Source: an uncultured Gammaproteobacteria bacterium
Lineage (GTDB): Bacteria > Pseudomonadota > Gammaproteobacteria > GCA-002705445 > GCA-002716945
Direction: 5' to 3'
NCBI GenBank assembly: GCA_902559355.1
Contig: CACEHM010000003.1
Span: 124,001 to 188,000, forward strand
DNA length: 64,000 nucleotides
In this document: in pieces, positions 17,989 through 20,665 of the stretch
How positions within the stretch are numbered: position 1 is the first letter of the stretch
Layout of the letters: each line of letters begins with the position of its first letter
The notes under the pieces: model-generated
Told to the model about the DNA's origin: nothing
The model's input: only the letters and a program-made list of their open reading frames with translations
Database searches by the model: none
Translations under genes and position numbers: made by a program

Positions 17989-19242
17989 ATGCTTGATTTA
18001 AAAAACATCCTGAATAATCCACAAGATGTGTCTAATGCATTATTAACCAGGGGTTATGAGTTAGATTTGTCGTTCATAGAAGATAAAGCTCAAGAAAGAA
18101 AGAAAATTATACAAAAAAAAGAACAGCTTGCTGGAGATAAAAATATTATATCTGATTCATTTCGAACAGTATCATCTGATGAAGAAAAAGAAAAATTAAT
18201 GAATCAATCCAAAAAGATTGATGATGAAGTACAATTATTAAAATCATCCCTTGAGAAGTTAGAAGATGTATTAAATGACCATCTACTTCATATTCCAAAT
18301 CTGCCTCATCCATCTTGTCCTATTGGAGATTCTGATAAGGATAATAGTTTAATAGAAAAAGTTAATGAGCCAAAAGGTGCTAACACCAAAGAACATACAG
18401 ATATTTTAGAATCCATTCAAATGATTAGTTTTGAAGAGGGTGTAAAAATCACACAATCACGTTTTGTGGTACTCAAGGATAAAGTTGCATCACTTCATCG
18501 GGCGCTTATTAATTTTATGTTATCTTCACACGTTAAAAAAAAATATATAGAGCATAATGTTCCATATATATGTAATTCTGCGAGCCTTATAGGAACAGGG
18601 CAGTTACCAAAATTCGAAGAAGACTTGTTTAAAATATCAAATTCTAACTTATACCTAATACCAACGGCAGAAGTTCCTTTAACAAATATATATAGAGATA
18701 TGATTTTATCAATTAAAGATCTACCCATTATGATGACTGCACATACCCCATGTTTTAGATCTGAAGCTGGATCATATGGTTTAGATACAAAAGGTATAAT
18801 TAGACAACATCAATTTGAGAAAGTTGAGCTTGTCCAAATTGTCCATCCAAATCATTCTCAACAAGCATTAGAAGATATTACATTACAAGCAAGATCAATA
18901 TTAGATGAACTAGAACTTCCATATCAAATAGTAGAGCTATGTACTGGAGATCTTGGTTTTTCATCACAAAAAACTTATGATCTTGAAGTTTGGTTTCCTA
19001 GCCAGAATAAATATAGAGAGATATCGTCTTGTAGTAATTTTGGTGATTTTCAATCTCGTAGGCTTAATATTAAATTCAAAGAAGATAAGAAAAAAAACTT
19101 TGTACATACTTTAAATGGTTCTGGACTTGCAGTAGGTAGAACACTAGCTGCACTTGTTGAAAACTGCTTTGATGGTAAACAAATTATTATTCCTAGTGTC
19201 CTACATAAATATTTAGATTTTAAGACCATTGAATTGTCATAA
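17989..19242 (+). CDS. serS: Seryl-tRNA synthetase
   Basis: A 417-residue class II synthetase that charges tRNA-Ser. The N-terminal antiparallel coiled coil (residues about 25-105, rich in E/K) binds the long variable arm. Motif 2 is FRSEAGSYGLDTKGIIRQHQFEKVE, and motif 3 is HTLNGSGLAVGRTLAALVENC near the C terminus; YREISSCSNFGDFQSRR contacts the adenylate. It is slightly shorter than E. coli SerRS (430). It lies directly upstream of a tRNA-Ser gene whose promoter overlaps the serS stop. In E. coli lolA and rarA separate ftsK and serS; here they are adjacent. Confidence 0.96.
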   Translation: MLDLKNILNNPQDVSNALLTRGYELDLSFIEDKAQERKKIIQKKEQLAGDKNIISDSFRTVSSDEEKEKLMNQSKKIDDEVQLLKSSLEKLEDVLNDHLLHIPNLPHPSCPIGDSDKDNSLIEKVNEPKGANTKEHTDILESIQMISFEEGVKITQSRFVVLKDKVASLHRALINFMLSSHVKKKYIEHNVPYICNSASLIGTGQLPKFEEDLFKISNSNLYLIPTAEVPLTNIYRDMILSIKDLPIMMTAHTPCFRSEAGSYGLDTKGIIRQHQFEKVELVQIVHPNHSQQALEDITLQARSILDELELPYQIVELCTGDLGFSSQKTYDLEVWFPSQNKYREISSCSNFGDFQSRRLNIKFKEDKKKNFVHTLNGSGLAVGRTLAALVENCFDGKQIIIPSVLHKYLDFKTIELS

Positions 19243-19273: not shown

Positions 19274-19360
19274 GGAGACGTGCCAGAGTGGTTGAATGGG
19301 CCGGTCTTGAAAACCGTTAGGGTGTCAAAGCTCTCGTGGGTTCGAATCCCACCGTCTCCT
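19274..19360 (+). tRNA. tRNA-Ser (anticodon UGA)
   Basis: The 87-base gene folds as a class II tRNA. The acceptor stem GGAGACG pairs with CGTCTCC, the anticodon loop CTTGAAA holds TGA, there is a long variable arm, and the T arm is GTGGG-TTCGAAT-CCCAC. It decodes UCA and other UCN codons. CCA is not encoded. The base after the acceptor stem (discriminator, 19360) is T, whereas E. coli tRNA-Ser has G. The outermost anticodon-stem pair is a C-T mismatch. serS lies 31 bases upstream. Confidence 0.93.
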
Positions 19361-19370
19361 GAATAAGATT

Positions 19371-20576
19371 TTGGATTCTAAAAAATATTATAGTTGGGTA
19401 CTTTATGATTGGGCTAACTCAGCTTATGCAACTATAGTACTTGCAGGTTTCTTTCCTATAATCTTTGCTGAATATTTTGCATCATCCATCCCAGCTTCTG
19501 AAAGAACACTATACCTTGGAATTTCTAATTCATCAGCAAGCCTAATACTTATATTTTTAGCGCCATTATTTGGACTAATGGCTGATAAATTTTCAAATAA
19601 AAAATTATTCTTACTTATATTTGCAAGCTTAAGCATTATCTCTACATTAATATTATCTTTTGTTACTAAGGACAGCTTTGTATTAGCTTCAATACTGTTC
19701 TCTATCTCACTCCTTGGGTTTATGATGTCTAATGTATTTTATGATTCAATGTTATTAAATTTTGAATCTCATAAATACGATAAAATATCTTCAATGGGTT
19801 ATGCACTAGGATATTTAGGTGGCGGCCTGGCTTTTGTATTTACGTTAATATTTCTTTATTTTAATTCAGAATCTACAATTGAAATCATTTCATCGAGTAA
19901 AATATCATTTATTTTTGCTGCCTCTTGGTGGTTAATATTCATGATACCTCTCTTTTTATACTGGCCAGAACAAAAAATAGATTCTAAATCAACTTCTCTG
20001 CTCGATACTTTTAAAGAGATTAAATCAATCAAACCTATTTTTTTATTTCTCCTTGCTTACTGGATATACATAGACGGTGTAGATACTATCATAAGGATGG
20101 CTATTAATTATGGCTTAACTCTGGGATTTAGTTCATCAGACTTACTTATAGCATTATTAGTAACACAATTCGTTGCATTCCCAGGAACTTTAATGATAAA
20201 TAAGATATCTGAGTATTTTACATGTGAATTAGCAATTATAGGCTGTCTAATAATGTACTTAGTAATAACTATCCTTGCATATAGTTTAGATAGTATTTTT
20301 GAATTTTATTTGATTGCATCTCTTATAGGTTTAGTACAAGGAGGCATCCAAGCTTTGAGTCGGTCATACTATGCGCGACTTATCCCAAACAATAAACACT
20401 CAGAATATTTTGGTATTTATAATATGCTAGGTAAATTTGCTGCATTAATTGGACCTTTAATAGTTGGCTTAATAACCTACTTAACACATGATCCTCGTCT
20501 GGGGATGCTTAGCATAGGTTTATTCTTCATTACTGGTATAATACTCTTCAATATTTCAAGAACGATTAATAAGTAA
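19371..20576 (+). CDS. MFS transporter, UMF1 family
   Basis: A 401-residue major facilitator protein with about 12 hydrophobic segments. The N-terminal WVLYDWANSAYATIVLAGFFP is the hallmark of the UMF1 family, related to yeast Atg22; PARLIPNNKHSEYFGIYNM-like sequence (here YYARLIPNNKHSEYFGIYN) near residue 335 is also typical. Substrates of bacterial members are not established. The start is a TTG only ten bases after a tRNA-Ser, with no clear Shine-Dalgarno, and the stop is two bases before a second tRNA-Ser, so all three probably share a transcript. A link to serine metabolism is only a suggestion from position. Confidence 0.85.
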   Translation: MDSKKYYSWVLYDWANSAYATIVLAGFFPIIFAEYFASSIPASERTLYLGISNSSASLILIFLAPLFGLMADKFSNKKLFLLIFASLSIISTLILSFVTKDSFVLASILFSISLLGFMMSNVFYDSMLLNFESHKYDKISSMGYALGYLGGGLAFVFTLIFLYFNSESTIEIISSSKISFIFAASWWLIFMIPLFLYWPEQKIDSKSTSLLDTFKEIKSIKPIFLFLLAYWIYIDGVDTIIRMAINYGLTLGFSSSDLLIALLVTQFVAFPGTLMINKISEYFTCELAIIGCLIMYLVITILAYSLDSIFEFYLIASLIGLVQGGIQALSRSYYARLIPNNKHSEYFGIYNMLGKFAALIGPLIVGLITYLTHDPRLGMLSIGLFFITGIILFNISRTINK

Positions 20577-20578
20577 AT

Positions 20579-20665
20579 GGTAGGTTGGCAGAGTGGTCGA
20601 ATGCGCCACCTTGGAAAGGTGGTTAGCGAGTAATCGTTACAAGGGTTCGAATCCCTTACCTACCT
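20579..20665 (+). tRNA. tRNA-Ser (anticodon GGA)
   Basis: An 87-base class II tRNA. The acceptor stem GGTAGGT pairs with ACCTACC, the anticodon stem CCACC/GGTGG encloses TTGGAAA (anticodon GGA), a long variable arm follows, and the T arm is AAGGG-TTCGAAT-CCCTT. It reads UCC/UCU codons. CCA is not encoded, and the discriminator base (20665) is again T rather than G. It begins two bases after the MFS stop, with no obvious promoter of its own. Confidence 0.94.

Follow-up and report, generated by a model that had tools for sequence, protein, structure and literature searches.

Canonical bacterial serine tRNAs, as in E. coli and T. thermophilus, carry G at discriminator position 73. Excerpts of a 2023 review list G73 as a serine determinant and, in E. 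coli, as a guard against leucyl- and tyrosyl-tRNA synthetases (LeuRS, TyrRS; PMC9976931). The other cues given for bacterial seryl-tRNA synthetase (SerRS), there and in excerpts of a second paper, are the variable arm, the first acceptor pairs and pyrimidines at positions 68 and 69 (PMC9976931, PMC9427863). Tolerance of other bases at position 73 is already known from mitochondria and yeast. In the mammalian mitochondrial tRNA-Ser/mSerRS system, according to the parts of the papers available, base 73 is not conserved, and charging of human mitochondrial tRNA-Ser(GCU) is not harmed by A73G (PMC9427863, PMC10412605). Yeast serine tRNAs likewise tolerate bases other than G: excerpts state that any base at 73 is tolerable (PMC8629427) and that tRNA-Ser(UGA) with A73 or C73 caused neither toxicity nor a heat-shock response, suggesting no mischarging (PMC6827378). 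The bacterial family described below differs from both systems, as far as these excerpts describe them: the mitochondrial tRNAs have lost the long variable arm and are recognised at the T-loop region, whereas the bacterial architecture is kept here; the yeast variants were engineered and the wild-type yeast isoacceptors all have G73, whereas the change reported here is natural, bacterial and family-wide. A limited search of the openly licensed literature, read in part, turned up no bacterial family described as naturally lacking G73 in its serine tRNAs, which suggests that this case is new.

The window, i.e., the whole stretch of 64,000 nucleotides that was analysed, contains serS (17989..19242, + strand), encoding a SerRS of 417 amino acids with an N-terminal coiled-coil domain and a class II core (Pfam PF02403 and PF00587), followed by tRNA-Ser(UGA) (19274..19360, +) and tRNA-Ser(GGA) (20579..20665, +). 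A gene for an Atg22-like/major facilitator transporter (19371..20576, +), mentioned for context only, lies between both tRNA genes. Analysis with ARAGORN and Rfam RF00005 revealed two type II tRNAs of 87 bases each, without an encoded CCA, with a long variable region and with serine anticodons in a normal cloverleaf. The acceptor stem of Ser(UGA), GGAGACG/CGTCTCC, and that of Ser(GGA), GGTAGGT/ACCTACC, both pair at 7/7 positions and are then followed by T, so that T73 is base 19360 in the former and base 20665 in the latter. The earlier note had reported T73 in both genes and had pointed out that a covariance model might shift the acceptor stem and place G at 73. RF00005, which scored Ser(UGA) at 56.2 bits and Ser(GGA) at 59.2 bits, produced no such shift: its 71 positions finish on T in both genes, with the same limits as ARAGORN. 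Moving Ser(UGA) by one base would pair C with T at 1:72, and the shift therefore fails. The other tRNAs of the window that had served for comparison also proved to be as described, with A73 in Pro, Leu and Val, G73 in Arg and Asp, and C73 in His.

The window genome (1.04 Mb in 18 contigs, 92.9% complete, 28 tRNAs listed) holds a third serine tRNA overlooked by the earlier note, Ser(GCU) (L018), with A73. The discriminator G73 of the E. coli-type serine identity set is thus absent, the three genes having T, T and A. A further serine tRNA is possible, since the assembly is incomplete to the extent given. All three genes begin with 5' GG and keep the pairs G1-C72 and G2-C71. Among the other tRNAs of this genome, Arg(CCG) (L006, C1:107870-107943) has U73 while the three other listed Arg tRNAs have G73; CCA is encoded, by a count made by eye, in just 3 of the 28 listed tRNAs, namely Val(UAC), Gly(GCC) and one Met(CAU).

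Position 73 was then compared over the serine isoacceptors of the clade. The family search covered 25 genomes; the order search gave an identical set, so this is the sole family of the order there. Ser(UGA) could be read in 21 genomes, which belong to five genera: 20 had T and one (G017) had A, so that four genera carry T and the fifth A. Ser(GCU) had A in 18 of 19 genes (17 genomes, five genera), the only G being in a second copy of G011 that looks foreign and was still counted. Ser(GGA) was the most mixed, with T in nine, A in seven and G in three of 19 genes (18 genes from 17 genomes plus the named locus L030). Altogether, the 59 family rows had T in 29, A in 26 and G in four, from patterns that, in the family as in the class, ended in D and so missed C73. 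In the same rows C71 and C72 were present in 59/59, as was a pyrimidine at both 68 and 69. All three isoacceptors were read in 11 genomes, and among these G73 occurred only in G014, in Ser(GGA), and in the extra Ser(GCU) of G011. The members of the window's genus that were read have T (UGA), T (GGA) and A (GCU), and G017 has A73 in its three serine tRNAs. The loss of G73 in most serine tRNAs is a trait of this family of small-genome Gammaproteobacteria.

These counts bear on two rival explanations. An assembly or boundary error, for which the draft state of the assemblies and the 18 contigs of the window genome might speak, has a practically negligible probability: the base is the same across many distinct assemblies, both tRNA finders give the same result and the acceptor stems are perfect. 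T73 is neither chance nor sequencing error because Ser(UGA) has it in 8/8 genus genomes read, as does the gene of the named assembly AG-461-I20 (L029), and the earlier assertion that no misreading was involved is borne out by a U73 that is real, unusual in the class and common to the clade. Conversion of base 73 to G after transcription, which would make the mature tRNAs canonical, is very improbable. Position 73 does adjoin the 3' processing site, in a genome in which 3/28 tRNA genes encode CCA, but the site carries three different bases across the family, and bacterial editing of this kind did not come up in the excerpts cited here.

In Ser(GGA), T, A or G stands at a site that adjoins serS in 17 of the 18 genes placed (read by eye), which fits a base that can change. 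The family also contains a number of plainly distinct Ser(GGA) sequences. These raise the alternative that the U73 form of this tRNA gene replaced an older one, through transfer between lineages or takeover by another copy, and did not originate by a point change. G014 offers a case in point: a decayed-looking T73-type Ser(GGA) (L086, 4113-4200), whose 3' acceptor strand pairs poorly, adjoins serS, and a Ser(GGA) with G73, read in its 3' half, lies just downstream of it; the pair is perhaps a replacement caught midway. In another family, G063 has a T73 Ser(GGA) that is somewhat similar by eye. As the explanation of the U73 gene, replacement nevertheless has a low probability, for it covers a route for Ser(GGA) only, not for Ser(UGA) or Ser(GCU), and it still requires a SerRS that accepts U73.

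Outside the family, G73 prevails. For Ser(UGA), the class sample of 185 genomes, family included, gave G in 133, A in five and T in three among the matches listed (141 of 160 matching genomes); the T73 genomes were G129 and two of the window's family, the window genome (G000) and G014. Ser(GCU) matched in 122 genomes of a class sample of 134 and was read in 120, G154 and G122 having given a tmRNA-like match only; four had a base other than G, in each case A (G000, G129, G083, G121). Ser(GGA), read in 113 genomes of the class sample, had a base other than G in seven, T in G000 and G063 and A in G129, G107, G133, G121 and G119. Among the class matches listed, only the window genome had T73 in both Ser(UGA) and Ser(GGA), while none of the three isoacceptors tested had G73 in G129 (T, A, A) or in G121 (A, A, A). 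Matches set aside by eye were, for Ser(GCU) in the class, those of six genomes with tmRNA-like 3' ends along with further matches that were not serine tRNAs, and coding DNA or other tRNAs in the remaining family, class and phylum searches. In the phylum, a search that asked for non-G ends only, and in which 398 is the number of genomes searched and not of those with a readable Ser(UGA), found Ser(UGA)-like matches in which CC is followed by a base other than G in nine genomes: one looks like coding DNA (G238), the window genome has T and the other seven have A.

G73 is under selection in other Gammaproteobacteria, because it is kept in the great majority of those sampled. The eight genomes outside the family in which one or more serine tRNAs lack G73 were smaller than the rest of a 133-genome sample (median 1.65 versus 2.7 Mb; one-sided p = 0.0015), which is just a hint of a link with genome size because this p ignores kinship and the isoacceptor reading is incomplete in some genomes. 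The phylum's seven A73 genomes, of about 3.6 to 6.0 Mb by the table, with four at 4.1 to 4.8, two at 5.3 and one at 6.0 Mb, show the opposite trend to the class sample.

The SerRS of the window retains both the coiled coil (PF02403) and the class II core (PF00587), and is 44-51% identical to 26 SerRS from outside the family. In the T. thermophilus complex, an excerpt implies, a flipped motif-2 Glu contacts G73, and Phe262 selects pyrimidines at 68 and 69 (PMC9427863). Motif 2 was compared in 46 gammaproteobacterial SerRS rows, comprising seven of the genus, 13 others of the family and 26 others, with T. thermophilus-style numbering anchored on the Phe262 named in that paper. The motif-2 Glu was present in 46/46 rows, and the motif-2 Arg was also kept. 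At the place of Phe262 stood Tyr in 7/7 genus members, 12/13 other family members and 23/26 other SerRS. Two residues further on, at the loop tip, the genus has Leu in 7/7, the rest of the family has Lys in 12/13 and Gln in G017, and 24/26 SerRS from outside the family have Lys or Arg. The Leu of the genus and the Gln of G017 fit a contact loosened in two lineages, but base 73 also varies in SerRS lineages that retain the residue. Strict covariation between SerRS and base 73 was considered and rejected, as the lineages that changed residues 264 and 267 are not consistently those that lost G73.

The earlier note suggested that U73 may reflect co-evolution with SerRS. In a specific form of this idea, the motif-2 loop tip changed from Lys/Arg to Leu in the genus and made an enzyme that now prefers U73. 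The uniform T, T, A of the genus members read goes with their uniform Leu, and G017, with A73 in three isoacceptors, has Gln where most other SerRS have Lys or Arg. We regard this reading as improbable even so. The 12 other family members with Lys at the loop tip all have T73 in Ser(UGA); G129 lacks G73 in three isoacceptors with an ordinary motif in which Lys and Arg are kept, and G203 has Met two residues after the Phe262 place with G73 in Ser(UGA). Base 73 thus varies with and without change in nearby residues, while the Glu implied to touch it never changes. A strict preference for U is, moreover, unlikely given A73 in Ser(GCU) of the same cell. The neighbouring position of serS, which the earlier note had mentioned in this context, is synteny and carries no information on recognition. 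What stands of that interpretation is a real, unusual and clade-wide U73; its link to SerRS is improbable.

In the SerRS tree the family formed one group with support of 100, with G129 and G121 outside it and the deep branches weak. The family was placed beside rows from outside the Gammaproteobacteria with a weak support of 67, a position compatible with early branching or transfer. The best solved-structure match of the window SerRS was 2dq3 (432 bits), which we take to be the Aquifex SerRS, followed by entries at 378-384 bits, presumably gammaproteobacterial. The window genome and four other family members were also searched for 16S, without a match.

In our view these genes probably encode ordinary serine tRNAs whose identity set no longer includes base 73. 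The supporting pattern consists of the variation at base 73, its spread over the family, the retained positions 68, 69, 71 and 72, the SerRS domains and the motif-2 Glu, and it suggests, at the level of gene comparison, that serine charging in these cells is independent of G73. Apart from base 73, the family resembles the canonical bacterial system in its type II tRNAs, C71 and C72, pyrimidines at 68 and 69, 5' GG wherever the complete gene was read, coiled-coil SerRS and motif-2 Glu; A73 in other gammaproteobacterial lineages fits a weak constraint. The N-terminal coiled coil of SerRS would hold the long variable arm, and the enzyme would read the first acceptor pairs G1-C72 and G2-C71 together with the pyrimidines at 68 and 69. 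Base 73 could then change among U, A and sometimes G with charging presumably remaining good, and other features that distinguish the tRNAs would now do the work of G73 in keeping LeuRS and TyrRS away. The simplest account would place the removal of base 73 from serine identity ahead of the family's diversification.

Reports on other organisms fall on both sides of this preferred reading. According to excerpts of the 2023 review, G73 does not act as a determinant when E. coli transcripts are unmodified, and E. coli SerRS recognises the tertiary shape (PMC9976931). Against it, the same excerpts give G73 as the strongest element when E. coli SerRS serylates tRNA-Sec, as strong for both M. barkeri SerRS, the bacterial-type and the archaeal, and as central in human and maize serylation (PMC9976931), and a paper seen in part cites that the change of A73 to G in E. 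coli tRNA-Leu permits serine charging (PMC6827378). Within the family, Ser(UGA) and Ser(GCU) are steady by genus, which looks steadier than free drift, and the Leu at the loop tip in the window's genus could be a real adaptation. A combination was also weighed: a family serine code without base 73, to which the genus added a loop tip remodelled from Lys/Arg to Leu that makes U73 neutral or favoured, with LeuRS and TyrRS adjusted to refuse the serine tRNAs with A73. We give it little credence. U73 is otherwise a mark of glycine and cysteine tRNAs.

The codons of serS were also compared with columns conserved at >=70% in 27 rows. UCN codons fell on 14 such columns, nine of them Ser columns (UCU 5, UCA 3, UCG 1) and five columns of other residues (UCU 3, UCA 2); no UCC codon fell on a conserved column in this one gene tested. 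With 9/14 of these columns being Ser, the code looks unchanged and recoding is unlikely.

A family nearly without serine G73, in which Ser(GCU) carries a leucine-like A73, is a natural experiment on how far a tRNA identity set can be reduced, and it cautions that base 73 alone is unsafe for assigning tRNA identity in metagenomic genomes. Loss of the leucine antideterminant C2-G71 was considered as well and dropped, the 21 other family genomes matched each having at least one G71 Leu(CAA) copy (by eye). The Leu(CAA) of the window genome (L021, C2:200671-200754) has G1-U72 and G2-C71, unlike the usual G71 form of the family, and is possibly a mobile extra tRNA; G019, which belongs to another genus, also has two Leu(CAA) copies, one of them with C71 and identical over the matched stretch, and one of the two in G013 has C71 as well, with a different sequence.
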